Assembly: GCA_022651245.1 (NCBI GenBank)
Contig: JALCQM010000010.1
Coordinates: 1 to 64,000, forward strand
Length of the DNA stretch: 64,000 nucleotides
Origin: Lactobacillus sp.
Lineage (GTDB): Bacteria > Bacillota > Bacilli > Lactobacillales > Lactobacillaceae
Direction of reading: 5' to 3'
In this document: piece after piece, positions 37,118 through 52,728 of the stretch
Layout of the letters: each line of letters begins with the position of its first letter
How positions within the stretch are numbered: position 1 is the stretch's first letter
Notes under the pieces: generated by a model
The model's input: the letters and a program-made list of their open reading frames with translations, nothing else
Databases searched by the model: none
Told to the model about the DNA's origin: nothing
Program-made: the position numbers and the translations under genes

Positions 37118-37396
37118 ATGCAGTACGATGCGTTAGGAATGATCGAAACGAAAGGCCTCGTTGGTTCTATCGAAGCAGCGGATGCAATGGTCAAGGCCGC
37201 CAACGTCACTTTAATCGGTAAAGAACATGTTGGTGGCGGGTTGGTCACCGTGCTGGTCCGCGGTGATGTCGGAGCAGTCAAGGCCGCGACGGATGCCGGT
37301 GCGGCTGCGGCGCAACGAATCGGAGAATTGCTCTCTGTGCACGTGATTCCGCGGCCACACGCTGAGGTCGAAACGATTTTACCTCATCGAAACTAG
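37118..37396 (+). CDS. BMC-H shell protein (hexamer), copy 1
   Basis: A 92-residue single BMC-domain protein ([10 protein letters not shown] start, PRP near the end) that forms hexameric tiles of the microcompartment shell. The pore-loop region reads KEHVGGGLV. The ATG at 37118 follows GAAAGGAG; the ATG at 37088 lies before that site. It is nearly identical in protein sequence to copies at 37427, 37740 and 52447, while the DNA differs at many third positions. First gene of the operon. Confidence 0.95.
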
Positions 37397-37426
37397 GCGC
37401 TAACAAGCGCGAGAGGAGCGTTCAAA

Positions 37427-37705
37427 ATGAACTCTGAAGCATTAGGCATGATTGAAACAAAAGGCTTGGTTCCCTCAATTGAAGCGGCCGATGCGATGGT
37501 CAAGGCGGCTAACGTCACCTTGATCGGCAAGGAACATGTTGGTGGCGGATTGGTCACCGTGTTAGTCCGTGGGGATGTCGGTGCGGTCAAGGCGGCAACA
37601 GATGCCGGTGCGGCAGCGGCACAACGGATTGGTGAATTGCTTTCTGTCCATGTGATTCCGCGCCCACATAGTGAAGTCGAAACGATCTTGCCCCACAAGC
37701 AATAA
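37427..37705 (+). CDS. BMC-H shell protein (hexamer), copy 2
   Basis: A 92-residue BMC-H protein, differing from copy 1 by a handful of residues (for example LVPSIEAAD instead of LVGSIEAAD, and the last few residues). Preceded by GAGAGGAG. Shell tile; the Pro substitution near residue 16 lies in the first helix start and is the main distinguishing feature. Confidence 0.95.
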
Positions 37706-37739
37706 TTCTAACAACTCAAAATGAAAAAGAGGTGGCATT

Positions 37740-38021
37740 ATGAATTCTGAAGCATTAGGAATGATCGAAACCAAAGGCTTGGTTGGTTCCATCGAAGCAG
37801 CCGATGCGATGGTCAAAGCGGCAAACGTGACCCTGATCGGTAAGGAGTTAGTTGGTGGTGGGTTAGTCACCGTGCTGGTCCGCGGTGATGTCGGTGCCGT
37901 TAAGGCAGCAACCGATGCCGGTGCGGCAGCGGCGCAACGAATTGGCGAGTTACTTTCCGTACACGTCATCCCCCGGCCACATACAGAAGTGGAAAACATT
38001 TTGCCAAAGAAGACTAATTAG
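37740..38021 (+). CDS. BMC-H shell protein (hexamer), copy 3
   Basis: A 93-residue BMC-H protein. It differs from copies 1, 2 and 7 in the pore-side segment, KELVGGGLV instead of KEHVGGGLV, replacing a His by a Leu near the pore loop, which could change pore selectivity. RBS AAAGAGG precedes it. The gene is followed 14 bp later by the transporter gene. Confidence 0.95.
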
Positions 38022-38035
38022 AAGAGAGGCGCAAA

Positions 38036-39043
38036 ATGAACTCGAGTAAGTTATTAGATACACAGGCATTAGCTGAAACGAAGATGCAGAGCCTGAACAA
38101 GAGTTTTCATATTTCCGGGATCGGTAACGGGCTAGTGTCAGGTTTGACCTACGGCATTTATTCCACATTAGTGGTGGTGGCCAGTGGCTTCAATCCATTA
38201 GCGAGTGCCGCCGGGATCTTGGCTGCCCCATTCGTCTGCTCTGGCTTGAATGACCTTTTTGCCGGCATCTGGTTACTCTTCTACAATGCTAAGCAAGGCC
38301 GGTTGAAAGAGTTATGGCGGACGCTTCGGACGACACCAGGGAAGATGCTAGTGATCGGTTTCTTATTAGGTGGGCCGATCGCCAACGGGGCGTACCTCGT
38401 CGGCTTGGCACTAGCGGGGGCTTATGCGATTCCGATTTCTGCCACCTGTAGTCTTTTTGGGGCATTATTCTCTTGGATATTCTTGAAACAGCGACCAACG
38501 AAGCGCGTCGTGGCAGGCATGTTACTGTGTGTCGCAGGGGCGATCGTGATCAATTTGGTCAAGCCAGAAGGCGCACCGAACTTCACTTTAGGCGTGATTT
38601 GTGCTTTGTTAGCCGCGATCTTCTGGGGCGCTGAAGGGGTCTTCTCCAGCTTCGGCGGTGCGATGATCGACACAGACGTAGCGGTTAACCTGCGCGAATT
38701 GATCTCTGGGTTAGTTAGCTTGTTTATCGTTTTGCCGTTCATCGGCGGGGGCATGCACCTCTTAGCCGGGACTTTTGCAGCGATGACACCAGTGTATTGG
38801 TTGATCGCTTCTGGCTTAAGCGCAGGGATCTCCTTTGTTTGCTGGTACAAGGCCAATGCCACTGTCGGCACGGCGATTGGGATGTCATTGAACGTCACGT
38901 ACGCCTTTTGGGGCGTGTTGTTCAGCGTCATGTTCTTGGGCCAAGCATTGACGGCAACGATCGTCATCGGCTCCATTGTGATCGTTGCCGGGGCGATTTT
39001 GGTCACCATGAACCCATTGGATCTATTCAGGAAGGGTGAGTAG
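38036..39043 (+). CDS. DMT-superfamily (EamA-type) transporter
   Basis: A 335-residue integral membrane protein with about ten transmembrane segments in two EamA-like halves and an N-terminal cytoplasmic stretch of ~25 residues. Conserved pieces include SATCSLFGALFSWIFL and LNVTYAFWGVLFSVMFLGQ. Choline-lyase loci in other bacteria often carry small multidrug-resistance-type transporters; by position this protein may import choline or export trimethylamine (inference). It is embedded between shell genes, so it is part of the same transcript. Confidence 0.8.
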   Translation: MNSSKLLDTQALAETKMQSLNKSFHISGIGNGLVSGLTYGIYSTLVVVASGFNPLASAAGILAAPFVCSGLNDLFAGIWLLFYNAKQGRLKELWRTLRTTPGKMLVIGFLLGGPIANGAYLVGLALAGAYAIPISATCSLFGALFSWIFLKQRPTKRVVAGMLLCVAGAIVINLVKPEGAPNFTLGVICALLAAIFWGAEGVFSSFGGAMIDTDVAVNLRELISGLVSLFIVLPFIGGGMHLLAGTFAAMTPVYWLIASGLSAGISFVCWYKANATVGTAIGMSLNVTYAFWGVLFSVMFLGQALTATIVIGSIVIVAGAILVTMNPLDLFRKGE

Positions 39044-39044
39044 C

Positions 39045-39329
39045 GTGTTATTACCTGCAAGAACTGCGGTACTGAATGAGTTGTATAAAAAAGGCAACGC
39101 GACCGTCGAAGAAATCATGGCCGATTTGAAGTGCAAGTACGGGACCGAGCGACAATTTACCAAGAAACTCTACTCCGATCACTGTATGGCGCTAGAAGCC
39201 AACGGGATGGTCGAGTTGTCCGGGTATGAGCTGGATGATGCTGGTGAACTCCAAATGGAATACCGGATCACCGATGACGGTCGCAGCACGGTCCACAAAT
39301 ATGTTGCTAAAAAATACCAAGACGAATAA
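39045..39329 (+). CDS. Small winged-helix-like protein of unknown function
   Basis: A 94-residue soluble protein I do not recognise as a named family. Predicted helices in the first 60 residues (LNELYKKGNATVEEIMADL, QFTKKLYSDHCMALEANGMV) followed by a beta-hairpin (LQMEYRITDDG) look like a winged helix-turn-helix. The GTG at 39045 has AGGAAGGG 8 bp upstream; the GTG at 39036 overlaps that site. It may be a local regulator or a structural accessory. Confidence 0.6.
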   Translation: MLLPARTAVLNELYKKGNATVEEIMADLKCKYGTERQFTKKLYSDHCMALEANGMVELSGYELDDAGELQMEYRITDDGRSTVHKYVAKKYQDE

Positions 39330-39343
39330 CTGAGGTGATCAGC

Positions 39344-39643
39344 GTGAAATATTACGGCGAAGAAGCGCTTGGACTAGTGGAAACCGTCGGCTTAGTTCCG
39401 GCATTAGACGCAGCGGACAAGATGTTGAAAGCGGCCAATGTGGAACTGATCTCGTATGAAAACATCGGCTCAACTTTGGTCACCATCATGATCAAAGGGG
39501 ATGTGGCCGCGGTCAAGTCAGCTGTGGAAGCGGGGGCGAAAGCGGCCGATGCGATCGGCAAATTGACGGCACATAACGTCATGCCGCGGCCATTACCGGC
39601 AGTTGGGGCCATTGTTTCCGTCCATGACATCGATTCAGAATAG
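39344..39643 (+). CDS. BMC-H shell protein, divergent type
   Basis: A 99-residue BMC-H protein, clearly diverged from the four near-identical copies (GLVETVGLVPALDAADKML; pore region YENIGSTLV). A 10-residue acidic tail (VHDIDSE) follows the domain. The GTG at 39344 follows GAGGTG by 6 bp. A distinct pore suggests a different solute or a special position in the shell. Confidence 0.93.
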   Translation: MKYYGEEALGLVETVGLVPALDAADKMLKAANVELISYENIGSTLVTIMIKGDVAAVKSAVEAGAKAADAIGKLTAHNVMPRPLPAVGAIVSVHDIDSE

Positions 39644-39655
39644 GAGAAAAAGCCA

Positions 39656-39964
39656 ATGGCAGGACATGAAGCGATCGGTTCGATCGAAACCTTTGGATTA
39701 GTGTTTGTATTAGAAGCCGCCGATGCGATGGGCAAGGCTGCCGATGTTGACGTTGTCGGGTACGAAAACGTCGCCTCGGGGTACATTTCCGTGATCGTTC
39801 GTGGCGATGTGGCCGCGTGCCAAGCGGCGGTGGATGCCGGTGTCAAAGCGGTAGAGGCAATGGGTGCGGAGGTCTACAGTTCCGTTGTGATCGCCAGCCC
39901 GCATAAAGATCTCGACAAGATCATTCACCGTTACGCCTTGAGCCCGCTGACGCCAGAAGAGTAG
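39656..39964 (+). CDS. BMC-H shell protein, divergent type
   Basis: A 102-residue BMC-H protein (IGSIETFGLVFVLEAADAM; pore region YENVASGYISV) with a longer C-terminal tail (HRYALSPLTPEE). It resembles the PduJ/PduA-like class less than the other copies. Preceded by AGGAGAAAAAG. Ends right before the catalytically altered aldehyde dehydrogenase gene. Confidence 0.93.
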   Translation: MAGHEAIGSIETFGLVFVLEAADAMGKAADVDVVGYENVASGYISVIVRGDVAACQAAVDAGVKAVEAMGAEVYSSVVIASPHKDLDKIIHRYALSPLTPEE

Positions 39965-39978
39965 TGGGAGATGATGAC

Positions 39979-41436
39979 GTGCCATTCATTGATAAAGATC
40001 TGTTATCCATCTCTGAAGCACGGATATTAAGCGAGACGGCCAAGAATCATCAAGTTAATTTACTGAGTTATACCCAAGTCGAACTTGATAAGGCTGTTGC
40101 AGCAATTTTTCAAATGATTGAAAACGATGGCCCAACGCTGATCGAACAAAGTGTGCTCGATTCAGGCGTGGGGGACAAGCAAGATGAAGTGACCTTATTA
40201 AAAGAATTTCTGCCCACTTGGAAGGCTTCGGTCACCGGCAAGCGGTTGGTGGGGGGCCTCGAAAGTGACGGACCGATACATACCGTCGGGGTACCTTTAG
40301 GGACTGTCGCTGTGATCATGGGCCAGGCGCAACCAATCATGAATGTGTTTTTCGCCGCGATCAGTGCGATCAAAACCGGCAATGCCTTAGTGATCGTCCC
40401 GCAACCGAAGCTGGCTAAGACGGTCGCCAATGTGGTGACGCTGCTAGATAACTTGATCCAGCAAGCCGGCTTACCGAGTGCGACGATCACTTGCATGACC
40501 GAGATCACCGATGAAGGCATCACTGAGCTGATCCAAAGCCCCAATATTGCGCTGGTCATCAATCTCGGCAATGCCCGCTTCATGACTGGGACACTGCCTC
40601 AAGCCAAACCGATCTATTACTGCGGGACGGGGTCGACGCCGGTGTTTATCGAACGCACGGCGGATATTGCGCAAGCCGTTCAGCAGATCATCAAGAGTCG
40701 CAGCTTTGACAACGGGTTGTTGCCGGCGGCCGAGCAATTCGTCATTACAGAGTCGGTCATTGCCAATCAGGTGCGGCATGAGCTGGCGGCCCAAGGGGCT
40801 TACTTCCTGACCGAAGCTGACGAAAAGCAGCTGGTCCACTTGTTGCAATCACTGGATGGGGACTCGCAAGTCTTGACTGGACAATCTGTCCAAGCCGTCG
40901 CGAAGCGAGCAGGCTTCACGGTGCCGGCAGACGCCAAACTACTGGTGACATCACAAGACTATATCTACGCCGAATCACCCTATACCGAGTCGCTGGACTT
41001 TCCGATCATCGTCTTTTACCTCGAGCCCGACTGGTTACGCGCGTGTGAGAAGTGCATGGCCTTGTTGAAGAATCAGCAGCACGGTCATACCCTCGCGATC
41101 CATTCTAACAATGCCGATGTGATCCGGGAATTCGCCTTAAAGAAGCCGGTGGCCCGGGTGATCGTGAACAACGCGGCGAGTTTAGCGGCGCTTGGCATTG
41201 GCTCCGACCTTGACCCGAGCTTGTGGCTAGGCGGCATGACGTCTGGCGGCGGCAGCATTGCCAAAGGTATCACGCCAGCAGATTTGACTTACGTGCGGCA
41301 GGTTGGTTATCCGCAGGTGCCGACGCATGAAGCGCAAGCGCCGACGAAGCCGGCCGCGGCAAAATCCGAGCGGCAACAAGAGATCCAAGACGATTTCTTG
41401 AAGCTCTTAAGCAAACTTGTAAATGAAAGCGATTAA
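39979..41436 (+). CDS. EutE-like aldehyde dehydrogenase homologue lacking the catalytic Cys
   Basis: A 485-residue CoA-acylating aldehyde dehydrogenase homologue, alignable along its length to the active enzyme at 50124-51716. At the active site SFDNGTICASEQ of that enzyme, this protein reads SFDNGLLPAAEQ: the catalytic Cys is Pro249 and no nearby Cys replaces it. The reading frame is intact and well conserved otherwise. The C-terminus has an Ala/Pro linker and an amphipathic helix (IQDDFLKLLSKLVNES), the usual form of an encapsulation peptide. It may be a structural or regulatory partner. Start GTG at 39979 follows GGGAG by 8 bp. Confidence 0.85.
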   Translation: MPFIDKDLLSISEARILSETAKNHQVNLLSYTQVELDKAVAAIFQMIENDGPTLIEQSVLDSGVGDKQDEVTLLKEFLPTWKASVTGKRLVGGLESDGPIHTVGVPLGTVAVIMGQAQPIMNVFFAAISAIKTGNALVIVPQPKLAKTVANVVTLLDNLIQQAGLPSATITCMTEITDEGITELIQSPNIALVINLGNARFMTGTLPQAKPIYYCGTGSTPVFIERTADIAQAVQQIIKSRSFDNGLLPAAEQFVITESVIANQVRHELAAQGAYFLTEADEKQLVHLLQSLDGDSQVLTGQSVQAVAKRAGFTVPADAKLLVTSQDYIYAESPYTESLDFPIIVFYLEPDWLRACEKCMALLKNQQHGHTLAIHSNNADVIREFALKKPVARVIVNNAASLAALGIGSDLDPSLWLGGMTSGGGSIAKGITPADLTYVRQVGYPQVPTHEAQAPTKPAAAKSERQQEIQDDFLKLLSKLVNESD

Positions 41437-41454
41437 AAAGGAGCGTTTAAGCAT

Positions 41455-44001
41455 ATGAACATGCAAGATTTTTCGGCTAAATTAGCCGAAGCAACCCAAG
41501 ATTTGTCTGATGAAGAACGCGCATCCCTGCAAAAAATGTTCGCTTCGATTTCAGATGATATTCAAGGTGGCGCTGCGAAATCCGGCGTTAAAGTCGCCTT
41601 TGCTTCAGACGGGGAAGACGTGCCAGAAGGCATCACCCCGCGTCTGAAGGCCTTGAAGGAAAACTACTTAGACCAAGTGCCATCGATCACGACGTACCGG
41701 GCACGGGCGATCACCAAGATCGCCAAAGAAAACCCGGGGATGCCTAAGATCGAATTACGGGCCAAATGCTTCAAGTATTGCTGCGAAACCGCACCGTTGG
41801 TGATCCAAGATCACGAATTGATCGTCGGTGCGCCAAACGGTGCGCCGCGTGCCGGCGCCTTTTCTCCTGATATCGCTTGGCGGTGGATGGAAGACGAAAT
41901 CGATACGATCGGCAAGCGGCCGCAGGACCCATTTTATATTTCGGATGAAGATAAAAAGGTTATGCGTGACGAACTCTTCCCATTTTGGAAAGGCAAGTCC
42001 GTCGATGAACACTGTGAAGACCAATACCGTGAAGCCGGGGTCTGGGAATTGTCTGGGGAATCTTTTGTTTCCGATTGTTCTTACCACGCCTTGAACGGTG
42101 GCGGGGATTCCAACCCTGGTTACGATGTCATCACGATGAAAAAAGGCATGCTCGACATCCAAAACGAAGCCAAGGCCCACTTGGAAGACTTGGATTACGA
42201 AAACCCTGACGACATCGAAAAGATCTACTTCTACAAGTCCGTGATCGACACCACAGAAGGGGTCATGATCTACGCCAAGCGCATGTCCGAATATGCGCAA
42301 AGCTTAGCAGACAAAGAAGCGGACCCCAAGCGGAAAAAAGAACTTGAACAGATTGCTTACGTCAACAGCCGGGTGCCAGCCCACAAACCAGAAACCTTCT
42401 GGGAAGCGATTCAAGCCGTCTGGACCATCGAATCGTTGCTGGTGGTTGAAGAAAACCAAACTGGGATGTCGATTGGCCGTGTCGATCAATATATGTACCC
42501 AATGTTCAAAGCCGACCTGGAAGCAGGGCGCATGAACAACTTCCAGGCCTTCGAACTGGCCGGATGCATGTTGATCAAGATGTCTGAAATGATGTGGATC
42601 ACCTCTGAAGGCGGCTCTAAGTTCTTCGCCGGTTATCAACCATTCGTCAACATGTGTGTCGGCGGGGTGACCCGCGAAGGCCGCGATGCGACCAACGATC
42701 TGACTTACTTGTTGATGGACGCGGTGCGTCACGTGAAGGTCTACCAACCATCGCTGGCTTGCCGGATTCACAACAAGTCGCCACGGGCATACTTGAAGAA
42801 GATCGTCGATGTTGTGCGCGCCGGGATGGGCTTCCCAGCTTGTCACTTCGATGATACTCACATCAAGATCATGTTGGCCAAAGGCGTATCGATCGAAGAC
42901 GCGCGCGACTATTGCTTGATGGGCTGCGTGGAACCGCAAAAGGCCGGCCGCTTGTATCAATGGACGTCGACCGCCTACACCCAATGGCCGATCTGTATCG
43001 AATTGGTCCTCAATCACGGGGTGCCATTATGGTACGGCAAGAAGGTTTGCCCGGATATGGGCGACCTCACCCAGTTTGATACCTTCGAGAAGTTCGATAA
43101 CGCGGTCAAACAAGAAATCAACTACATCACCAAGTGGACGGATGTGGCCACGGTGATCTCTCAGCGGGTCCATCGGGATCTGGCACCAAAGCCGCTCATG
43201 TCCATTATGTACGAAGGGTGCATGGAACATGGGAAAGATGTTTCTGCCGGCGGTGCCATGTACAACTACGGCCCTGGTGTTGTTTGGTCTGGTTTGGCGA
43301 CTTACACCGACGCGATGGCAGCGATCAAGAAGCTGGTCTTTGACGACAAGAAGTACACCTTGGAACAACTTAACAAGGCCTTGGTCGACGACTTCCAAAG
43401 CGAACCGCAAGTACGCACCGACTGCTTGAACGCCCCGAAGTATGGCAATGATGATGATTATGCCGATCTGATCGCGGCTGACTTGATCGAATACACCGAA
43501 AAAGAACACCGCAAGTATAAGACCTTGTATTCCAACTTGAGCCACGGGACGTTATCGATTTCCAACAACACGCCATTTGGCCAAATGACCGGCGCTTCCG
43601 CCGGTGGTCGCCGCGCATGGCAGCCATTATCTGATGGGATCAGCCCGTCTCAAGGCGCCGATTTCAAAGGCCCGACGGCGACGATCAAGTCCGTTTCTAA
43701 GATGTCCAACGATAACATGAACATCGGCATGGTGCATAACTTCAAGATCATGTCCGGGCTTTTGGACACGCGCGAAGGCGAAGAAAGCCTGATCACCTTA
43801 TTGCGGACCGCCAGCACGTTAGGGAACGGCGAAATGCAATTTAACTATTTGGATAACCAGACCTTGATCGAAGCGCAGAAACACCCAGAACAATACCGTG
43901 ATTTGATCGTCCGGGTGGCGGGCTACAGTGCCTTCTTCGTTGAACTCTGTAAGGATGTTCAAGATGAAATTATCAGCCGGACGATGCTGACACACTTTTA
44001 A
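41455..44001 (+). CDS. cutC: Choline trimethylamine-lyase (glycyl radical enzyme)
   Basis: Cleaves choline to trimethylamine and acetaldehyde inside the microcompartment. 848 residues, the short form without a long N-terminal extension. Residues diagnostic of CutC are all present: Tyr210 and Asp218 (YHALNGGGD), thiyl Cys491 and Glu493 (GCVEPQ), Thr504 and Tyr508 (YQWTSTAY), and glycyl radical Gly823 in RVAGYS; spacing equals that of the characterised Desulfovibrio enzyme (offset +2). Propanediol or glycerol dehydratases of the same superfamily lack this set. The N-terminal ~50 residues may serve encapsulation. Spacing to AAAAAGGAG is 11 bp. Confidence 0.96.
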
Positions 44002-44029
44002 TTAACGTTTGTATGGAGATGATTGCTCG

Positions 44030-44980
44030 ATGAGTACTCAGACAAAACTAGATGTTGAACGCCAAGTCATGGTCTTCAACGTACAAAAATACAATGTCTA
44101 TGATGGACCAGGGATCCGGACGATCGTTTTCCTCAAGGGCTGTCCGCTACGGTGCCAGTGGTGCTCTAACCCAGAAGGGCTAGAACAAAAATACCAGGTG
44201 ATGTACAAGCGTGATGTTTGCAGCAACTGTATGGCCTGTGTCGATGTTTGCCCGATGGGGATCCACTACATCGATGAAAATGGTCACCACCAGGTCCGGC
44301 GTGATCGCTCTTGTAACGGGTGCCGTAAATGCGTCGCCGTTTGCCCGATGGCCGCGCTGAATATCAGCGGTGAAGTCAAGACCATTTCCGAATTGCTAAA
44401 GCTTGTGCATGAAGATGATGCGTTTTACGAAACCTCTGGTGGCGGGATCACGTTAAGTGGTGGCGAATGCACGGCCCAGCCGGAAGGGGCAATCACCCTC
44501 TTACAAGCATGCAAGGACGATGGCATCAATACGGCGATCGAAACTTGTGGGTACGCCCCAACGGAGAACCTGATGAAGATCGCGGAACACGTGGATCTGT
44601 TCCTCTATGATCTGAAGCACATGGATCCGGTGAAGCACAACGAATTGACCGGCATGAGCAACGAAAAGATCTTGGCCAACCTGACCAAGTTGTTGCAAGA
44701 AGGCTATAACGTCAAGATCCGCATGCCGATGCTCAAAGGGATCAATGATAGCGAAGAAGAAATCGACGCGGTCATTGACTTCTTGAAGCCGTATAAGGAC
44801 CTCCCGAATTTTAAAGGGATCAACTTGTTGCCTTACCACAAGCTAGGCGTGAATAAGTACAGCCAGCTGGGGATGAAATACCCGGTCGATGGCGATCCTA
44901 GCTTGAGCGATGCCGATTTGGACCGTATTGAAGGGATGATCAAGAAGTATGATTTCCCAGTTGCCGTGATCCGGCACTAA
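44030..44980 (+). CDS. cutD: Choline TMA-lyase activating enzyme (radical SAM)
   Basis: Installs the glycyl radical on CutC. 316 residues: radical SAM motif C-x3-C-x2-C in KGCPLRCQWCSNPE near residue 35-45, then an inserted ferredoxin domain with two clusters (CSNCMACVDVCP, CNGCRKCVAVCP), then the SAM-binding part (SGGGITLSGGEC). It needs reduced flavodoxin or ferredoxin. The ATG at 44030 follows TGGAGA; an in-frame TTG at 44009 is less likely. 28 bp after cutC. Confidence 0.95.
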   Translation: MSTQTKLDVERQVMVFNVQKYNVYDGPGIRTIVFLKGCPLRCQWCSNPEGLEQKYQVMYKRDVCSNCMACVDVCPMGIHYIDENGHHQVRRDRSCNGCRKCVAVCPMAALNISGEVKTISELLKLVHEDDAFYETSGGGITLSGGECTAQPEGAITLLQACKDDGINTAIETCGYAPTENLMKIAEHVDLFLYDLKHMDPVKHNELTGMSNEKILANLTKLLQEGYNVKIRMPMLKGINDSEEEIDAVIDFLKPYKDLPNFKGINLLPYHKLGVNKYSQLGMKYPVDGDPSLSDADLDRIEGMIKKYDFPVAVIRH

Positions 44981-45408: not shown

Positions 45409-45495
45409 ATCCCGTTCGACACGATGTCCATATCGCCAGCGACAAGGCGTGATCCGCGACGGTGAGGACAGCCCCGGTTGAAAATGGTGATAAGG

Positions 45496-45939
45496 ATGAA
45501 ACGACGGACCATGATCATCGGACCCAACCATAGTGGCAAGGTCCAGCTGGCGCAGTACCTTGATCAGCAAGACAAACAGCGGATGCAAGCCTGCTTGTTT
45601 TACGGCGAGCAGACGCTGACGGTGCCAGGGGCGTATCTTGAATGTCCTTGGATGCATCAACACATTATCGCCGCGCAACAAGATGCTGACTGTATCTTGA
45701 TGCTATCCGCCATCGACCGGACGCGACGCAACTACCCACCGAATTTTGCCAAGGTGTTCCGCCTGCCGATCATCGGCGTCGTGACCATGACGACACAGAC
45801 GCCGCCGACGACAGCGGATGTCTATCGGGAATTCAAGGCGACCGGGATCCCAGAACCGTTTTTCACATTAAATTTACAGCGGCAAGCCGATTTTGCCGCA
45901 TTAACCGCAATGATCAATACGAAGAAAGGAGGGCTTTAA
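45496..45939 (+). CDS. EutP/PduV-like small GTPase-fold protein with altered P-loop
   Basis: A 147-residue protein of the EutP/PduV family. The Walker A motif reads GPNHSGKV instead of G-x4-GK-S/T, so the Mg-coordinating Ser/Thr is missing; the DxxG and NKxD motifs are also unclear. In relatives, this family may act as acetate kinase-like or in organelle positioning; function here is uncertain. Start is ambiguous: the ATG at 45496 fits the family N-terminus (MKRRTMIIGP), but its ribosome site is poor; TTG 45478 or ATG 45484 follow GGTGAGG. Confidence 0.75.
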   Translation: MKRRTMIIGPNHSGKVQLAQYLDQQDKQRMQACLFYGEQTLTVPGAYLECPWMHQHIIAAQQDADCILMLSAIDRTRRNYPPNFAKVFRLPIIGVVTMTTQTPPTTADVYREFKATGIPEPFFTLNLQRQADFAALTAMINTKKGGL

Positions 45940-47079
45940 GTGGCCCAGTATATGATGCCGACCAAGATTTTCTTTGGCAACGAAGCGGTTGACGAAATTG
46001 CCAACCTCAGTTTCAACCGATACTTCATTATCTGTGATCCCTTTATGCAAAAGAGTCATAAAGTCGATCTGATCACCAAAAGCCTAGATGCAAAAAAAAC
46101 CCCGTATGCCGTGTTTGCCGATGTTGTCCCCGATCCGACCATCGACGTGGTGACGCAAGGACTGGCACAAGCCCTTGCCTGTCAACCAGAGGCGATCATC
46201 GCCTTAGGTGGGGGATCTGCCATCGATACCGCCAAGGCGATCAATAGCTTGTACGCCCAATCCACCGGGGCGGCGGCACCGGCCTTGATTGCGGTGCCGA
46301 CCACCAGTGGCACCGGGAGTGAAGTGACGTCATTCGCCGTGATTTCCGATCCGGCGACCAAGTCCAAGTACCCGATCATCGATGCGCAGTTGATTCCCAA
46401 TTACGCCATCTTAGATCCGCAGTTCACCTTGAGTGTTCCCGCCAGTGTGACCGCGGATACCGGCATGGATGTTTTGACCCATACGCTAGAAGCCTATGTG
46501 TCTACCGGGGCGACGGATTTCACCGACGCGTTCGCCGAAAAAGCGATGCGGATCGTCTGGCAAGAGTTGGCGACCACAGTGAAGCATGGCGATGACCTCG
46601 CCGCGCGCACTAAGATGCACAACGCCTCTTGCCTCGCCGGGTTGGCCTTTAGTAGTGCCGGGTTAGGGATCAGCCATAGCTTAGCCCATGCTTTCGGGGG
46701 GATGTTCCACATTCCCCACGGCCGGGCGAACGCGATGATTTTACCGCACATTATCTCTTACAATGCCGGCTTAGAGTTGGCAGGGGAAAGCACCGCCTTG
46801 CACCGTTATGAGGCGGCGGCCAACCTATTAGGCATCCAAGCTGGCACGCCCAAAGCCACCGTTCATGGCCTGATCACCGGGATCAAACGGTTGAGTCAAT
46901 CATTCAACATCCCGCAAACGATCAATGACTACGGCATCGATCCCGAGGAATTCTTAGAAGCGGTGCCGGCTATGGCGCAAAAGGCCTTGGATGATAATTG
47001 TACGGGGACGAACCCGCGGAAGCCGAGTCTCGCTGACTTGGAAGGGTTATATAAGGAGCTGGTTAAAGGAGGGTACTGA
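45940..47079 (+). CDS. eutG: Iron-containing alcohol dehydrogenase (EutG-like)
   Basis: Reduces acetaldehyde to ethanol with NADH, recycling NAD inside the organelle. 379 residues of the Fe-dependent ADH family: nucleotide-binding ALGGGSAIDTAKAI near residue 90 and metal ligands in GMDVLTHTLEAY, HSLAHAFGG and HIPHGRANA. The GTG start directly follows the stop of the EutP-like gene and has AAAGGAGGG upstream. With EutE it allows redox-balanced disproportionation of acetaldehyde. Confidence 0.93.
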   Translation: MAQYMMPTKIFFGNEAVDEIANLSFNRYFIICDPFMQKSHKVDLITKSLDAKKTPYAVFADVVPDPTIDVVTQGLAQALACQPEAIIALGGGSAIDTAKAINSLYAQSTGAAAPALIAVPTTSGTGSEVTSFAVISDPATKSKYPIIDAQLIPNYAILDPQFTLSVPASVTADTGMDVLTHTLEAYVSTGATDFTDAFAEKAMRIVWQELATTVKHGDDLAARTKMHNASCLAGLAFSSAGLGISHSLAHAFGGMFHIPHGRANAMILPHIISYNAGLELAGESTALHRYEAAANLLGIQAGTPKATVHGLITGIKRLSQSFNIPQTINDYGIDPEEFLEAVPAMAQKALDDNCTGTNPRKPSLADLEGLYKELVKGGY

Positions 47080-47080
47080 G

Positions 47081-47653
47081 ATGAAATTCATCACCGAGTA
47101 TGACCTCAAGTACCAGTATCAACAGCAACCTTTCGACACATTTCAAGTGACAGCAACGCAGCGCTTGACGCCAGAGGCGAGGCAATTTTTAGCCGACCGG
47201 CGCGTGACGATCACCACTGCGCAACCGCCGGTGACGACAGCCACACCAAAACAACCGGCAACCGCCAAGTCAGTCCCGGTGCCAGACCACAAGTTAGCCA
47301 TTTTGGTCAACTACGTGCAACTGGATCTCTACGAGACGGCGCTGGCTTGTAAGCCGCTGGATATGGCGTTGAGCCAGCAACTCTTGGATCTCGCCGAAAG
47401 TTTAGAAGCACAAGCGCAAAAAGTGGCCGCACACCAAGTGCCACCTGCTAACCTAGTCGCCCCTAACACGTTCAAGCTCACGTATCTATATGCCTTGAGC
47501 GAATACGGGCCGATCATGATCAAGCTGGCGCACTTAGGCAACGCACTGTTACTACTAGGCGACCGCCTAGCCCCTGAGCCCAACGAGCTGATCCAAGTGA
47601 TCTTACAACAGCTCGCTCAACTCATTACGGAACTGAAACACAAGGAGGAATGA
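47081..47653 (+). CDS. EutT/cobalamin adenosyltransferase-like protein
   Basis: A 190-residue protein: short N-terminal domain (FITEYDLKYQYQ...RLTPEARQFLADRRVTITT), Ala/Pro/Thr linker (residues ~48-70), then a four-helix-bundle-like domain with KLAILVNYVQLDLYETAL and LIMIKLAHLGNALL-type helices (positions ~75-185). This layout recalls EutT. The cysteine/histidine metal cluster of classical EutT is not visible. CutC needs no cobalamin, so a role other than B12 adenosylation is likely. The N-terminal domain shares its TPxA pattern with the EutQ protein of this operon. Confidence 0.65.
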   Translation: MKFITEYDLKYQYQQQPFDTFQVTATQRLTPEARQFLADRRVTITTAQPPVTTATPKQPATAKSVPVPDHKLAILVNYVQLDLYETALACKPLDMALSQQLLDLAESLEAQAQKVAAHQVPPANLVAPNTFKLTYLYALSEYGPIMIKLAHLGNALLLLGDRLAPEPNELIQVILQQLAQLITELKHKEE

Positions 47654-47655
47654 CC

Positions 47656-48501
47656 ATGTCTGCGGAACAAGAATTCGCGTATTGCAACCGCATCATTTCG
47701 CAATTTGAAGCTGTCATCGACCACCCAATCACGACGGCAGATGGCGATTACTATACTGGGGTCGATCTGGGCACCGCCTGTATCGTGCTGGCCGTTTTGG
47801 ATCGCACTGGTCGCCCTGTCGCTGGGGCCTATCAATATGCGAATGTTGTCCGCGATGGCATGGTGGTTGATTACATTGGCGCGATCGATATTGTACGGCA
47901 ACTGAAAGAAAAGCTTGAAGCCCAATTACACACAGAACTCGTGCATGCCGCAGCAGCCTTACCACCTGGTACGGATGAACTGGATTCGGGTGCGATCAAA
48001 AACGTGGTGCAAGCCGCAGGTTTCGAGCTGGACAACTTGTTAGACGAACCATCGGCTGCCAATCAGATCTTGCGGATCAAAGATGGCGCGATCGTCGATA
48101 TCGGCGGTGGCACCACCGGCATCGCTGTGTTGAAAGAGGGGGTCGTGACCAAGGTGGCCGATGAGCCGACCGGCGGCACGCACTTATCCTTAGTGATCGC
48201 CGGCGCCTATCAAAAAACTTTCGACGAAGCCGAATTATTTAAGCGGGATGAGGCGAACCATCAAGCTCTGTTACCCGTCGTCAAGCCAGTGATCGAAAAA
48301 GTCGCGTCGATCATCACGCAACATATCGCTGGCGAGAAGGTCGATGAGATCTATTTGGTCGGTGGTACCTGTTGCTTGACCGGCCTTGAAGGGATTATTG
48401 AACAAAAGTTACACATTAAAACAGTCAAACCTCAAAATCCGATGTTTGCCACCCCATTAGGTATTGCAACCAGTATTGTGCCAGAACTTGAACTCGCGTA
48501 A
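47656..48501 (+). CDS. eutJ: EutJ-like actin/Hsp70-fold chaperone
   Basis: A 281-residue protein of the EutJ family with an ASKHA-type nucleotide fold: phosphate loops GVDLGTACIVLAV (residues ~33-45) and VDIGGGTTGIAVL (~150) plus YLVGGTCCLTG. Thought to help assembly or reactivation of encapsulated enzymes. The ATG at 47656 has AAGGAGG 7 bp upstream; the ATG at 47650 overlaps it. Confidence 0.9.
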   Translation: MSAEQEFAYCNRIISQFEAVIDHPITTADGDYYTGVDLGTACIVLAVLDRTGRPVAGAYQYANVVRDGMVVDYIGAIDIVRQLKEKLEAQLHTELVHAAAALPPGTDELDSGAIKNVVQAAGFELDNLLDEPSAANQILRIKDGAIVDIGGGTTGIAVLKEGVVTKVADEPTGGTHLSLVIAGAYQKTFDEAELFKRDEANHQALLPVVKPVIEKVASIITQHIAGEKVDEIYLVGGTCCLTGLEGIIEQKLHIKTVKPQNPMFATPLGIATSIVPELELA

Positions 48502-48549
48502 AAGTAGGCATACTGGCAACCACGGATTGTGAGAAAGGAAGTGGCGATC

Positions 48550-48819
48550 ATGTTAACGGCAGAATTAGTGGGTAATATCTGGGCGACCAGAAAATCTGAA
48601 GCGTTGAACGGGTTCAAGCTGATGCTCGCTCGCGTCATCGGCGGCACCCGTGCAGGCGAGCAGATCGTGGTCATCGATACGGTTGGCGGCGGTGTGGGTG
48701 ACCGGGTGATCGTGGTCACCGGCAGCTCTGCGCGGCGGATGCTCAACGACGATAATATCCCAACTGATGCCTCGGTCGTTGGCATCATCGATACGGACTG
48801 TCCGTTACTCTTAGAATGA
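48550..48819 (+). CDS. eutN: EutN/CcmL-type pentameric vertex protein (BMC-P)
   Basis: An 89-residue BMC-P protein capping shell vertices: GNIWATRKSEALNGFKLML start and VIDTVGGGVGDRVIVVTGSSAR pore/vertex region. The ATG at 48550 follows AAAGGAAG by 9 bp; the GTG at 48529 lies upstream of that site. Only one BMC-P gene is present. Confidence 0.94.
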   Translation: MLTAELVGNIWATRKSEALNGFKLMLARVIGGTRAGEQIVVIDTVGGGVGDRVIVVTGSSARRMLNDDNIPTDASVVGIIDTDCPLLLE

Positions 48820-48847: not shown

Positions 48848-49465
48848 ATGAAGCAACTGATCAGTATCAAGACCATAGAAGAAGCACACGCCAACGGTGA
48901 CACCGAGTGCGTGCTGAAAACCGATGCGTTAGTCACCCCAGCAGCCAAAGATCTGGCGGTGGAATACGGGATGACGTTGGTCCCACAAAAGGAGGCGTCC
49001 AAGCCGATGAGTGCCGATGAAATCACCAAAGAAGATTTATTCGCCATGTTGAAGGAATTGATCGCCAATGGCGGCGTTGAAGCGCCAGCCCAACCGTTCA
49101 AAGCTTGCGTTCACCCCAATGGGCTCAAGTTGGTCCATGGCGACACGGTCAAGATGGATGTCTTTGACACTGGCGATCCTAAGGTCAACGCGCATTTTCA
49201 AGAGCTCGTCAGCAAGGATGAATCCCATATGAGTGCGGGGTTCTTAGAAATTGAAAATTCTGCATTCGATTGGCATTTGACGTACGAGGAAATCGATTAT
49301 GTGATCTCCGGGACGCTTGAAGTGACGATTGATGGCAAGAAGTATTCTGGCAAGGCCGGGGACGTCTTGTTCGTTCCGAAGGATTCGCACGTTGTCTGGA
49401 GCTCTCCGGATCACGCGCACATTTTCTACACGACCTATCCTTCCAACTGGGCTGATGCTGAGTAA
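48848..49465 (+). CDS. eutQ: EutQ-like cupin protein
   Basis: A 205-residue protein with an N-terminal ~45-residue segment (VTPAAKDLAVEYGMTLVP), a linker and a C-terminal cupin domain (EIDYVISGTLEVTIDGKK, GDVLFVPKDSHVVWSS). EutQ relatives have acetate kinase activity in Salmonella or structural roles. Acetyl phosphate from PduL would be its substrate in the first case. The N-terminal segment resembles that of the EutT-like protein, hinting at a common docking module. Confidence 0.9.
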   Translation: MKQLISIKTIEEAHANGDTECVLKTDALVTPAAKDLAVEYGMTLVPQKEASKPMSADEITKEDLFAMLKELIANGGVEAPAQPFKACVHPNGLKLVHGDTVKMDVFDTGDPKVNAHFQELVSKDESHMSAGFLEIENSAFDWHLTYEEIDYVISGTLEVTIDGKKYSGKAGDVLFVPKDSHVVWSSPDHAHIFYTTYPSNWADAE

Positions 49466-49476
49466 GGGGTGAGTAG

Positions 49477-50100
49477 ATGGAAGCACTGGGAATGGTCGAG
49501 ACGCGGGGGTTGATCGCCGCGATCGAAGCAAGTGACGTGATGCTGAAAACGGCCGATGTCCATCTGGTGAACCAGGAATACGTCGGCGGCGGCTTGGTCG
49601 CCACCTTGATGACTGGCGATGTCGCGGCGATCAAAACCGCGGTGGACGCGGCGGCAACTGCGGTGCGGCGCTTGTCTGAAGAAGGCCTGTTGACCACAGA
49701 CGTGATCCCGCGGCCAGATGGCATGTTACACACGATCGTTGAGCGGCCGACACCACCACGGCCAAAAATGACAGCGGTTGCGCCAGAGCAGGCGACGCCA
49801 GAACCAGAATCTGAAGCCGCGCAAAGCGTGCTACCGGAGGTCCCAAAGGCCGCAGACAGCACGCCGGAAGCCCCAGCAACACCGGCTGAAAAGGCCACTA
49901 AGCTGGATGCGGCGCAACTGCGCGCGCTCGTAGCCGATAAAGCCAAGGCGGCCGCTTACTTAGGACAGTTCAAGATCAACGAGCTGCGCAACTTTGCCAA
50001 GCGGCAACCCGCGTTCGTCAAGCAACACAAGAACGTCTATCAGTTGAGCAAGAACAATCTCGTCAACACACTGATCGACTTCTACCAACACGAAGCATAA
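49477..50100 (+). CDS. BMC-H shell protein with C-terminal SAP/Rho-N-like extension
   Basis: A 207-residue fusion. Residues 1-90 form a BMC domain (ALGMVETRGLIAAIEASDVM; pore region NQEYVGGGLV). Residues ~95-145 are an acidic Pro/Ala/Glu linker. Residues ~146-207 are helical, with FKINELRNFAKRQP...YQLSKNNLVNTLIDFY, resembling a SAP/Rho-N-type or similar small helical module. PduK-like proteins also carry C-terminal extensions, but usually with an iron-sulfur motif; no Cys is present here. The extension may bind nucleic acid, cargo or the cell interior. Confidence 0.8.
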   Translation: MEALGMVETRGLIAAIEASDVMLKTADVHLVNQEYVGGGLVATLMTGDVAAIKTAVDAAATAVRRLSEEGLLTTDVIPRPDGMLHTIVERPTPPRPKMTAVAPEQATPEPESEAAQSVLPEVPKAADSTPEAPATPAEKATKLDAAQLRALVADKAKAAAYLGQFKINELRNFAKRQPAFVKQHKNVYQLSKNNLVNTLIDFYQHEA

Positions 50101-50123
50101 AGAATGAAAAGGGGATCTGACAA

Positions 50124-51716
50124 TTGGAACAATTCGATAAAGATCTGTGCTCGATCCAAGAAGCAAGAGATCTCGTCAAAGCCGGGAAAGCCGCAACGGA
50201 TCAGCTGGCGACCTTCACTGGCGAGCAAATCGACCACATTTTACAATATATGGTTGAATCTGCAGAGGAACATGCAGCAGAGCTAGCCGAAATGGCAGTT
50301 GTCGAGACTGGTTTTGGGAAGGTCAGGGACAAGGCGTATAAGAACCACGCTGCGGCCACATTACTCTATAACCAGATCAAGGACCAAAAGACGATCGGCG
50401 TGATCGCTGAAGACCAAGCCAACAAAACCTTCGAAGTGGCCGATCCGGTCGGCTTAGTGATGGGGATCGTACCGTCGACCAACCCGACATCGACCGTCAT
50501 TTTCAAGGCGATGATCGCCATCAAGTCCCGCAATGCGATCGTCTTTGCACCGCATCCGGCCGCTGCCAAATGCACGTATAAGGCCGCTGAGATCTTGGCC
50601 GACGCAGCAGAAGCTGCCGGCGCGCCGAAAGGCACCATCGGTTGCGTGTCGACACCGACGATGGCCTCGACGAACGAATTGATGCACGCCAAAGACGTCA
50701 GCTTGATCATTGCGACTGGCGGCCCAGGCATGGTCAAAGCCGCTTACAGCGCAGGCAAGCCGGCGATCGGTGTCGGCGCCGGGAACTCCCCCGCCTACAT
50801 TGAAAAAACGGCGAACGTACACGACGCCGTGGCCCGCATTATCGCCAGCAAGTCTTTTGACAACGGGACGATCTGCGCCTCTGAGCAATCGATCATTGCC
50901 GAAGAATGCAATCAAGACCAAGTGATCGCGGAACTGAAAGCCCAAGGCGGCTACTTCATGAGTGAAGAAGAAACCGCTAAAGTCTGCAAGTTGCTGTTTC
51001 GGCCGGGGACCCACGCGATGAGTGCCAAGTTTGTCGGGCGCTCGCCACAAGTGATCGCAAAAGGCGCTGGGATCACGATCCCAGAAGGCACGAAGGTATT
51101 GGTCGGCCCTCAAGGCGGCGTGGGCGATGGCTACCCGCTGTCTTATGAAAAGTTGACCAGCGTCTTAGCCTTTTATGCGGTCAAAGATTGGCACGAGGCG
51201 TGCGACTTGAGCATCCGCCTCTTGCAAAACGGCATTGGGCACACGATGAGTCTACATACCAACGACCCAGAGATGATCTTGAAGTTTGCGGCCAAGCCAG
51301 CTTCGCGGATCTTGGTCAACACAGGTGGTAGCCAAGGGGGGACCGGGTTGAGTACCGGCTTACCGATCGCCTTCACCTTAGGCTGTGGGACGATGGGCGG
51401 CTCTTCCGTTTCTGAAAACGTCAGCCCTAAGCACCTGCTCAATATCAAGACGGTCGCTTGTGGGATCAAGGACGTGACGACTTTGGCCGATGACGACCCG
51501 ACGTTCCACTTCGAAGAACACGGCGCAAAAGCCGCGGCTCCGGCCTATTCTTCCGATCATGACGCCCCCGCCTGCCAGACGGTCACCACGCCTGCGCCAC
51601 TGAAGCAAAGCCCGGCAGCGATTCAAGAAGCCTTTGACAAGACTTCTGGAGCGGTCGACAAAGACAAGCTTGCAGACGTCGTGAAGAAACTGTTGCTGGC
51701 GATGAACAATCAATAA
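50124..51716 (+). CDS. eutE: CoA-acylating acetaldehyde dehydrogenase (EutE-like)
   Basis: Oxidises acetaldehyde to acetyl-CoA with NAD. 530 residues: NAD/CoA-binding PSTNPTSTVIFKAMIAIKSRN, catalytic Cys251 in SFDNGTICASEQ, GGSQGGTGLSTGLP and GCGTMGGSS. The C-terminal ~70 residues form a Pro/Ala linker and an amphipathic helix (DKDKLADVVKKLLLAMNNQ), a likely encapsulation peptide. Translation starts at TTG 50124, 8 bp after AAAAGGGGA. It pairs with PduL and EutG; a Cys-less homologue is encoded at 39979. Confidence 0.94.
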   Translation: MEQFDKDLCSIQEARDLVKAGKAATDQLATFTGEQIDHILQYMVESAEEHAAELAEMAVVETGFGKVRDKAYKNHAAATLLYNQIKDQKTIGVIAEDQANKTFEVADPVGLVMGIVPSTNPTSTVIFKAMIAIKSRNAIVFAPHPAAAKCTYKAAEILADAAEAAGAPKGTIGCVSTPTMASTNELMHAKDVSLIIATGGPGMVKAAYSAGKPAIGVGAGNSPAYIEKTANVHDAVARIIASKSFDNGTICASEQSIIAEECNQDQVIAELKAQGGYFMSEEETAKVCKLLFRPGTHAMSAKFVGRSPQVIAKGAGITIPEGTKVLVGPQGGVGDGYPLSYEKLTSVLAFYAVKDWHEACDLSIRLLQNGIGHTMSLHTNDPEMILKFAAKPASRILVNTGGSQGGTGLSTGLPIAFTLGCGTMGGSSVSENVSPKHLLNIKTVACGIKDVTTLADDDPTFHFEEHGAKAAAPAYSSDHDAPACQTVTTPAPLKQSPAAIQEAFDKTSGAVDKDKLADVVKKLLLAMNNQ

Positions 51717-51736
51717 CTTTTAAAGGAGGTGAGAAC

Positions 51737-52447
51737 ATGGATGAAGAATACGAAAAAGCCATCAATATTTTAACCGGCGCCTTGAAAGTCGAAGCCGCGC
51801 CGAAGACGTGTCGTAATAGCGTCGATGCGACTTCCGGGGCGACCAGTCAGGCACCAGAGCGCAAAGACACCGTGCCAGTGGGGATCTCCAATCGCCACAT
51901 CCACTTGTCCCAAGCAGATCTGGAAGCGTTATTTGGGCCTGGCTATCAACTGACCAAGCTGAAGGATTTGTCTCAGCCAGGCCAGTTTGCCAGCAAAGAA
52001 ACGGTGATGCTGGCAGGGCCTAAAGGGGCAATCACGAAGGTCCGCATCTTGGGTCCGGTGCGCGAACATACGCAAATCGAGATCCTCGCCTCCGATCAAT
52101 TCAAGTTGGGGACAAAAGCCCCTGTGCGCTTGTCCGGCCATCTTGATGGCACCCCAGGCGTGACCGTGGTGGGGCCGAAGACGTCGATCAAGACGCCAGA
52201 TGGCCTGATCATTGCCCAACGCCACATCCATATGCTACCGCAACAAGCCATCGAATATGGGGTGCATGACGGCGAAACCGTGGCGCTTGAAATTGAAGGG
52301 TTACGCGGGGGCGTTTTGAATAACGTCATCATCAGAGCCAAAGCCAACTCTGGCTTAGAATGCCATATTGATACAGAAGAAGCTAACGCACTCGGGGTCA
52401 CCTCCGGGATGCCAGTGAAGATCAAAAAAATTGGAGGTAATGAATAA
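51737..52447 (+). CDS. pduL: PduL-type phosphate acyltransferase
   Basis: Converts acetyl-CoA to acetyl phosphate, regenerating CoA inside the shell. 236 residues: an N-terminal amphipathic helix ([14 protein letters not shown]), a likely encapsulation peptide, a linker, then two beta-barrel domains with the zinc-binding NRHIHLS and QRHIHM motifs. It overlaps the start of the last shell gene by one base. Acetyl phosphate can then yield ATP by acetate kinase. Confidence 0.95.
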
Positions 52448-52728
52448 TGCAAGACGCTTTAGGTATGATCGAAACGAAAGGTTTAGTCGCATCCATCGAG
52501 GCCGCTGATGCCATGGTCAAGGCAGCCAATGTCACCTTGATCGGGAAGGAACACGTCGGCGGTGGCTTGGTGACCGTCTTGGTCCGTGGGGATGTTGGGG
52601 CGGTCAAGGCCGCCACTGATGCTGGGGCCGCAGCTGCTCAACGTATCGGGGAACTCCTCTCTGTTCACGTGATCCCACGTCCGCATGCAGAAGTGGAAGG
52701 CATCTTGCCACATCCAGAAGCCAAGTAG
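52447..52728 (+). CDS. BMC-H shell protein (hexamer), copy 7 at operon end
   Basis: A 93-residue BMC-H protein, nearly identical to copies at 37118, 37427 and 37740 (KEHVGGGLV pore region) but ending in HPEAK. The DNA differs from those copies mainly at silent sites. Start overlaps pduL; last gene before the terminator. The ATG at 52447 follows TTGGAGGTAATGA. Confidence 0.95.

Follow-up and report, generated by a model that had tools for sequence, protein, structure and literature searches.

Gene content of the choline locus

The window analysed here, a stretch of DNA of 64,000 nucleotides, carries at positions 37118-52728 a complete GRM1 (type I cut) choline trimethylamine-lyase microcompartment operon from a Lacticaseibacillus, whose closest relative among the compared genomes is L. 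baoqingensis. The operon comprises 21 genes, spaced -8 to 34 bp apart throughout except before eutP, where 133 bp intervene. A first-pass annotation had proposed a complete operon in a lactobacillus; every gene that it named was recovered in place, with an open frame and a family match, and the host is a lactobacillus as proposed. The features of the operon and its downstream neighbour are given below.

37118..37396, + strand: BMC-H 1
37427..37705, + strand: BMC-H 2
37740..38021, + strand: BMC-H 3, third of three tandem near-identical copies
38036..39043, + strand: LicB-like choline transporter (DMT/EamA; PDB 7b0k LicB, E 9.5e-24; PF00892)
39036..39329, + strand: 97-aa winged-helix protein of PadR-like fold (AlphaFold mean pLDDT 88.5; Foldseek best match PadR 9qbd, E 7.8e-05)
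39335..39643, + strand: BMC-H 4
39656..39964, + strand: BMC-H 5
39964..41436, + strand: CutB, aldehyde dehydrogenase paralogue with Pro replacing the catalytic Cys (TIGR02518, 335.7 bits, cut-off 620.1)
41455..44001, + strand: CutC, choline trimethylamine-lyase (TIGR04394, 1648.8 bits, cut-off 1050; residues; tree)
44027..44980, + strand: CutD, radical SAM activase (TIGR04395, 522.4 bits, cut-off 360)
44997..45344, + strand: EutS-type permuted BMC-H (121.7 bits, slightly under the cut-off of 123)
45478..45939, + strand: EutP/PduV-like protein (TIGR02528, 54.7 bits, under the cut-off of 138)
45940..47079, + strand: iron alcohol dehydrogenase in the CutO/EutG role (below all equivalog cut-offs shown)
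47078..47653, + strand: 191-aa conserved protein (no family match; relatives in many of the best 80 of 239 cut loci)
47650..48501, + strand: EutJ (NF011660, 391.9 bits)
48502..48528, + strand: eutJ-eutN junction of 27 bp, the grpU site in 27 grpU-bearing Lactobacillales stretches; grpU absent here
48529..48819, + strand: BMC-P (EutN/CcmL type)
48848..49465, + strand: EutQ-like cupin (PF06249)
49477..50100, + strand: BMC-H 6, with a C-terminal extension
50124..51716, + strand: EutE/CutF acylating acetaldehyde dehydrogenase, catalytic Cys present (TIGR02518, 726.3 bits, cut-off 620.1)
51737..52447, + strand: PduL phosphate acyltransferase (NF011652, 264.9 bits, cut-off 209)
52447..52728, + strand: BMC-H 7
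52874..54202, + strand: NADH oxidase-like / CoA-disulfide reductase-like protein (below the cut-offs shown)

The gene order is common to many of the best 80 of the 239 loci of confirmed CutC relatives, and the 97-aa winged-helix protein is matched in most of these 80. The NADH oxidase-like gene also adjoins the cut locus in L. baoqingensis, and its membership in the choline system is uncertain.

The seven residues regarded as diagnostic in CutC (Y210, D218, C491, E493, T504, Y508 and G823) are all exactly in place, and align to the best-matching solved choline lyase, PDB 5fau, which we take to be the Desulfovibrio alaskensis enzyme; by role they are presumably the active-site Tyr, Asp, Cys, Glu, Thr, Tyr and Gly, respectively. 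In a tree that took in the rows other than L019, which was left out, this CutC falls within the choline clade, in a 46-row Lactobacillales group of choline-lyase loci (support 98). Assignment to another glycyl radical enzyme (GRE), whether a diol, hydroxyproline or sulfopropanediol dehydratase, was rejected, the next best family scoring only 640 bits. The names CutD, EutE and PduL are likewise borne out by scores above their family cut-offs. The proposed EutG is indeed an iron alcohol dehydrogenase, but not by the EutG equivalog (217.4 bits, cut-off 556), so that the name rests on role and position. The first-pass annotation is silent on the MerR regulator and the pyruvate:ferredoxin oxidoreductase upstream, the LicB-like transporter, the Cys-less state of CutB, EutJ, EutP and EutQ, and the lack of grpU.

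The upstream aldehyde dehydrogenase is probably a dead paralogue with a non-enzymatic role. Among 81 loci, three of which have no upstream aldehyde dehydrogenase of 200 aa, the catalytic cysteine was found in none of the 78 CutB copies as against all 70 EutE copies. CutB was already termed putatively inactive by Sutter (2021), and PMC8217296 describes the second aldehyde dehydrogenase of GRM1 as putatively inactive.

The shell set is present as first described, with seven BMC-H genes, one EutS-type gene and one BMC-P gene. At the position of the tandem BMC-H 1-3, two copies occur in L. zhaoyuanensis and mostly one in other loci among the best 80 of 239. A BMC-T gene was not found; the weak full-length matches to PduT run over the tandem BMC-H genes and were rejected as a PduT gene. 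The absence of BMC-T noted in the first-pass annotation therefore stands for this operon, but its extension to known choline loci in general was too broad, since the BMC-T protein PduT is encoded in about 25% of GRM1 loci (PMC6325248).

Classification and occurrence

The locus has the short CutC with an N-terminal extension, CutD, aldehyde and alcohol dehydrogenases, PduL and BMC shell genes that define GRM1, together with the second, putatively inactive aldehyde dehydrogenase (CutB, with Pro at the Cys position). Like other type I cut clusters of the Firmicutes and the Desulfovibrio cut cluster, it combines a CutC of about 848 aa and its CutD with two aldehyde dehydrogenases, of which the upstream copy is without the Cys, an alcohol dehydrogenase, PduL, EutJ/P/Q, a BMC-H/BMC-P/EutS shell set, a LicB-like transporter and a MerR regulator. 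It differs from them in being without grpU and PduS/PduT, in having a pyruvate:ferredoxin (flavodoxin) oxidoreductase (PFOR) gene and merR in a divergent unit, and in its three tandem near-identical BMC-H genes. GrpU, a usual but non-obligatory GRM1 feature, is absent from both the window and the whole genome; of the PduS and PduT that mark GRM1b, there is no PduS match and no single PduT gene. With GRM2 (type II cut; Klebsiella, E. coli 536) the locus shares a choline trimethylamine-lyase microcompartment without accessory Fe-S proteins, but its CutC, at 848 aa, is the short form. The CutC of GRM2 carries an N-terminal extension of about 350 aa, and GRM2 is without any accessory Fe-S protein (PMC6325248).

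The choline microcompartment is rare in Lactobacillaceae, yet a known kind of system. The first-pass view that this is an unusual lactobacillus trait agrees with our survey, in which a CutC above the TIGR04394 cut-off occurred in 7 of 397 Lactobacillaceae genomes and, within the host genus, in 2 of 30. Searches of genome contigs also found loci in Companilactobacillus and Loigolactobacillus, so this operon type already occurs in other lactobacilli.

A plasmid location found no support in a search of 72,556 plasmids, none of which came close to matching the 22-kb region; the contig itself is 68,683 bases long. Enterococcus raffinosus does, however, have a CutC of 86% identity on replicons of roughly 1 Mb. 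A recent foreign island, as judged by GC content, was rejected, 31366-54202 having 53.3%, inside the 45-56% range of eight other sampled contigs. Positions 1-28000 have a GC content of 43.5%, below that range.

A divergent MerR-PFOR unit beside the operon

The new element lies just outside 37118-52728 and consists of the linkage of PFOR to cut and its exchange with grpU. The genes concerned, together with a candidate cut promoter, are the following.

31366..31896, - strand: FMN-reductase / flavodoxin-like-fold protein, final gene of the PFOR unit (PF03358, 1.5e-14)
31901..32350, - strand: PAS-domain protein, overlapping the PFOR stop (PF13596, 7.2e-24)
32347..35883, - strand: PFOR (NifJ; TIGR02176, 1699 bits, cut-off 911)
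35894..36751, - strand: MerR-type choline regulator (NF053782, 275 bits, below the cut-off of 450)
37043..37073, + strand: candidate MerR-type cut promoter, TTGACC-19-TACACT

The merR gene, matched by the choline utilization transcriptional activator family NF053782, heads this unit divergently from the cut operon, and PFOR, which has two CxxCxxCxxxC ferredoxin motifs, starts 10 bp past its stop. The FMN-reductase-like protein has a 90% counterpart in L. baoqingensis and no match in L. zhaoyuanensis. A candidate site of the form TTGAC-N19/20-TA...T lies at most 420 bp upstream of the first matched BMC-H in 39 of 54 loci; 15 of the 54 are without the TTGAC form.

Cut-linked PFOR was found in three genera: Lacticaseibacillus, Loigolactobacillus and a third genus (g43, probably Streptococcus) of the family f4. 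It adjoins cut in the host, L. baoqingensis and L. zhaoyuanensis. In three g43 genomes it lies directly past the final BMC-H genes, in their orientation, and has a C-terminal tail resembling an encapsulation peptide; two of the three have a MerR gene behind PFOR. PFOR exceeded the cut-off in 11 of 397 Lactobacillaceae genomes; no PFOR at all was found in four Companilactobacillus genomes and one other cut-positive genome. Flavodoxin is encoded in all seven cut-positive Lactobacillaceae, and a Fer4_13 ferredoxin in three of the seven, namely those bearing PFOR.

Mutual exclusion of grpU and cut-linked PFOR

GrpU is found in about 85% of GRM1 (PMC6325248). Of the CutC in the 36 stretches retrieved for comparison, six that belong to other clades (L203, L205-L209) were set aside. 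Among 33 Lactobacillales GRM1-like loci, grpU was present in none of the six with an adjoining PFOR and in all 27 of the others (Fisher 9e-7, uncorrected for kinship; allowing for kinship leaves two or three events). GrpU was called by HMM rather than by the GxCPQ[NH] motif, which matched a CutD-like sequence in L010 and missed the GrpU of L080. No grpU was detected in the whole genomes of the six PFOR-linked hosts, while all six control genomes were positive, and one PduS query gave no match in the PFOR-linked loci. None of grpU, PduS and PFOR was found in four of the best 80 of 239 loci, which were set aside: L063, L072 and L076, all three cut off by a contig edge, and L077, with no matched eutN or eutE. 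For non-Lactobacillales loci the PFOR scan covered about 10 kb from cutC. L205 (G635), whose CutC belongs to another clade, lies near a PduL, a partial match to PduT and some shell genes, without grpU or cut-linked PFOR; it would be an exception to the pattern if counted as a cut microcompartment.

In a PFOR tree that omitted L136 and L227, the six cut-linked PFORs do not form one clade, and recruitment to cut loci was therefore probably repeated. A single origin of all six was rejected (AU p 0.0007) and one of the three Lactobacillaceae PFORs weakly so (p 0.021), both tests having been run after the tree was seen. The two PFOR groups lie apart in a tree of CutC+CutD+EutE, yet a single clade was not rejected (p 0.07, AU test likewise run after the tree was seen), so that grpU loss could be one event.

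Proposed function

Judged from gene content, choline would be taken up by the LicB-like transporter and cleaved within the shell by CutC, once activated by CutD, to trimethylamine and acetaldehyde. The latter would be dismutated by EutE (CutF) and the iron alcohol dehydrogenase to acetyl-CoA and ethanol, with acetyl phosphate formed by PduL; these fluxes would follow from the known pathway. An intact locus that is nonetheless silent, or non-functional for trimethylamine formation, seems very improbable, all frames being open, the active-site residues intact and the proteins 68-99% identical to those of L. baoqingensis, even if no lactobacillus expression or product data were found in the literature searched, as far as its accessible text goes.

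The explanation we consider best, with a somewhat better than even chance of being right, is a GRM1 operon with the divergent MerR-PFOR unit as a functional part, PFOR supplying electrons to CutD. Choline may induce PFOR, which would oxidise pyruvate and reduce flavodoxin or ferredoxin; the reduced carrier would then pass low-potential electrons to the [4Fe-4S] cluster of CutD, allowing CutC activation. PFOR may thus stand in for the putative electron route of the Fe-S pore shell protein GrpU, or of PduS/PduT, in other GRM1 loci. No encapsulation peptide is visible in the sequence of the host's PFOR, and activation therefore probably takes place in the cytosol, either ahead of assembly or while it proceeds; in g43 the C-terminal peptide may bring PFOR into the shell. 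More tentatively, and with rather less confidence, PFOR may represent a third, repeatedly recruited redox module replacing GrpU (or PduS/PduT), shell-borne via its C-terminal peptide in one lineage.

Blaschkowski is said to have described, in 1982, a pyruvate:flavodoxin oxidoreductase route for reduction of the pyruvate formate-lyase (PFL) activase in E. coli. There, as proposed here, a PFOR-family enzyme would reduce a GRE activase through flavodoxin; the E. coli gene is presumably a housekeeping one, whereas PFOR here is linked to one GRE operon and mutually exclusive with grpU in the examined loci.

The locus may instead be an ordinary GRM1 operon with PFOR as a passenger, grpU having been lost where cytosolic flavodoxin suffices for GRE activation. 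Another GRE frame, of 757 aa and probably PFL, is present in the host genome, and a like frame occurs in most genus mates, which have no PFOR; an activase is thus probably reducible without PFOR in the host genus. The small number of independent events also favours a passenger, as does the existence of grpU-less GRM such as GRM2, devoid of all accessory Fe-S proteins (PMC6325248). We nevertheless regard it as unlikely: PFOR adjoins cut in two families, at differing positions and from differing PFOR clades, each time without grpU, and in f4 it is reported only in the three cutC genomes among more than 60 genomes listed.

Slightly less likely again is a PFOR that belongs to the choline programme for carbon or redox balance (pyruvate to or from acetyl-CoA) rather than CutD activation. 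PFOR makes or consumes acetyl-CoA, the product of EutE, and the g43 tail hints that PFOR may share the shell interior with EutE and PduL. Such a role leaves the exchange with grpU, PduS and PduT unexplained, and the genome probably has PFL already for acetyl-CoA.

A 2019 review (PMC6325248) treats the role of accessory Fe-S proteins and the electron supply to encapsulated activases as an open question. In our search of the open-licence PMC literature, made partly by title, no report of PFOR with cut or GRM was found. The natural replacement of grpU by an electron-producing enzyme that is well understood opens the activation hypothesis to direct testing, both genetic and biochemical, in lactobacilli. 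Some lactobacilli are also possible trimethylamine producers, which would bear on the choice of food strains. A PFOR also lies divergently beside a different GRE microcompartment locus in G241, which is likewise without grpU.

Exchange of grpU and PFOR

The choline operon itself is of an already known type; what is new is a pyruvate:ferredoxin oxidoreductase (PFOR) in place of grpU, the Fe-S pore shell gene. The divergent unit beside the operon encodes a choline-family MerR regulator (275 bits, below the family cut-off of 450), PFOR (1699 bits against a cut-off of 911), a protein with a PAS domain and a reductase of flavodoxin fold, with 10 bp from the merR stop to the PFOR start. Of 397 Lactobacillaceae genomes, 11 have a PFOR over cut-off; three of these carry cutC, and in all three the two adjoin.

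GrpU HMM matches were found in 69 of the best 80 of 239 confirmed cutC loci, with none in the loci of the window, Lacticaseibacillus baoqingensis or Loigolactobacillus zhaoyuanensis. The remaining grpU-less loci comprise five from Bacillaceae with PduS, three at a contig edge and one without eutN and eutE. Among 36 further stretches from Lactobacillales genomes, many of the same species as the 80, grpU was present in 27, always between eutJ and eutN. Six of the nine exceptions are CutC clades outside the cut operon type, and the other three belong to one genus-level group (f4/g43), probably Streptococcus to judge by its size; Rath 2017 (PMC5433236) mentions cutC in Streptococcus. In these three genomes PFOR lies on the same strand, ~100 to 950 bp after the last BMC-H genes, with a choline-type MerR gene downstream of it in two.

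Across 33 Lactobacillales loci of GRM1-like type, five of them with more distant CutC (67-70%), grpU is absent from 6/6 with PFOR beside the locus and present in 27/27 without (Fisher p 9e-7, the loci not being independent). Twenty-two of the 27 grpU-bearing genomes have PFOR elsewhere, the nearest on the same contig ~63 kb from cutC, and five lack it. Searched genome-wide, the six PFOR-type genomes and G241, from another Lactobacillaceae genus, gave no GrpU match; all six controls were positive. G241 carries a second microcompartment type with PduB, an unspecified GRE and activase, divergent PFOR and no grpU; its locus (L136:9703-18404) has further BMC genes besides PduB.

INDEPENDENCE

A single clade of all six cut-linked PFORs is rejected (AU p 0.0007). 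The three from Lactobacillaceae are probably not a clade either (AU p 0.021); both tests were run after the tree was seen. The PFOR of L. zhaoyuanensis falls within its own genus (99/96), those of Lacticaseibacillus join a different Lactobacillaceae genus (99/100), and those of f4 lie beside an Enterococcus-type clade with weaker support (85/77). The CutC+CutD+EutE tree keeps the two PFOR groups apart, with f4 beside Granulicatella (97/95); one clade of PFOR-type loci is not rejected there (p 0.07). Our reading is that PFOR was recruited at least twice and grpU lost at least once.

At their C-termini the f4 PFORs carry a short, amphipathic-looking helix behind a variable linker, e.g. EDGLQAILKELEF, closely resembling encapsulation peptides of enzymes from the same loci. 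No such tail was found on the PFORs of the window, L. baoqingensis, L. zhaoyuanensis or the remaining aligned PFORs, some of which have different, charged tails. Encapsulation of PFOR is thus plausible in f4 only.

Proposed electron supply to CutD

It is well established that PFOR and pyruvate together yield reduced flavodoxin or ferredoxin. Radical SAM activases require a low-potential electron, e.g. from flavodoxin, and PduS/PduT and GrpU have been proposed as possible routes, their function being called an open question; the available text of that source (PMC6325248) contains neither 'PFOR' nor 'ferredoxin oxidoreductase'. The simplest reading is that PFOR, placed beside a choline regulator, would supply CutD. 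Flavodoxin occurs in 7/7 cut-positive Lactobacillaceae genomes and a Fer4_13 ferredoxin in 3/7, only those with PFOR. Counting against supply of CutD by PFOR, most other members of the genus carry a probable PFL and no PFOR, and in Companilactobacillus a locus of the grpU type likewise occurs with no PFOR. The replacement of grpU by PFOR makes the open question testable.

Choline operon and its occurrence

The first-pass annotation had described a choline lyase operon, unusual for lactobacilli, and both observation and reading stand. CutC has all of the choline residues named for it, scores 1648.8 bits against the choline lyase equivalog (cut-off 1050) and has the choline lyase 5fau as its best solved relative; CutD scores 522.4 bits (cut-off 360). 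The CutC tree that had been called for (116 rows) groups the window's CutC with that of L. baoqingensis (100), then L. zhaoyuanensis (99), inside a Lactobacillales clade (98). The closest named locus among the matches listed is that of L. baoqingensis 47-3 (CutC 92%). The PFOR match in that genome is identical in score and contig coordinates to the one in G363, a genome assigned to the window's genus. CutC over cut-off was found in 7/397 Lactobacillaceae genomes, 2/30 of the window's genus, 1/8 of the L. zhaoyuanensis genus and 34/395 across the order, and the trait is therefore rare in lactobacilli, not unique.

The 21 genes (37118-52728, + strand) are separated by -8 to 34 bp, with a single exception of 133 bp, and include the reported shell set of seven BMC-H, one EutS-type and one BMC-P.

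Genes of the cut operon, all on the + strand
1-3 (37118-38021, +): three BMC-H
4 (+): LicB-like transporter
5 (39036-39329, +): 97-aa winged-helix protein
6-7 (+): two BMC-H
8 (+): CutB, aldehyde dehydrogenase paralogue
9 (+): CutC
10 (+): CutD
11 (+): EutS-type shell protein
12 (+): EutP
13 (+): iron alcohol dehydrogenase
14 (+): 191-aa conserved protein
15 (+): EutJ
16 (+): BMC-P
17 (+): EutQ
18 (+): extended BMC-H
19 (+): EutE
20 (+): PduL
21 (+): BMC-H

A sigma70-like site (TTGACA-17-TACAGT) lies upstream of merR, and one like it in form is present in L. baoqingensis and L. zhaoyuanensis. Ahead of the first shell gene is a candidate MerR-type promoter whose spacer measures 19 bp. TTGAC sites spaced by 19-20 bp were counted, without a shuffled control, in 39/54 loci. 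The 97-aa protein has no family in NCBIfam or Pfam; a counterpart follows the LicB-like transporter in most of the best 80 of 239 loci, and its AlphaFold model is a PadR-like winged helix. Cut loci may thus have a second regulator in this protein.

In the window CutB has Pro at the position of the EutE catalytic Cys. Across the window and the best 80 of 239 loci, this Cys is found in 0/78 upstream copies (Ser 39, Pro 30, Ala 6, Val 2, Thr 1) and in 70/70 downstream aldehyde dehydrogenase copies. The Cys-less CutB confirms and extends a known point, since Sutter et al. 2021 (PMC8217296) already term the second GRM1 copy putatively inactive. CutB retains an encapsulation-peptide-like C-terminus and diverges faster than its neighbours (in loci beyond those of the two nearest species, ~36-46% against 80-88% for CutC).

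It was also noted that the near-identical tandem BMC-H genes at 37118-38021 number three in the window and L. baoqingensis and two in L. zhaoyuanensis, with usually a single gene there in the other cut loci. Enterococcus raffinosus records (e.g. NZ_CP081847.1) place cutC (86% identity) on ~1 Mb replicons recorded as plasmids, by which the gene may have spread. Four loci from another family group (L203, L206-L208) have CutC proteins (62-63% identity) that form a clade of their own; cutD, a transporter of the EamA type and a winged-helix relative lie nearby, and no shell genes matched within the fetched stretch. Overlapping ORFs on both strands at 56603-56980 read as internal repeats. Positions 1-28000 form a low-GC (43.5%) carbohydrate region with GH31, GH65, alpha-amylase, sugar-binding protein and altronate/galactarate dehydratase-like genes.
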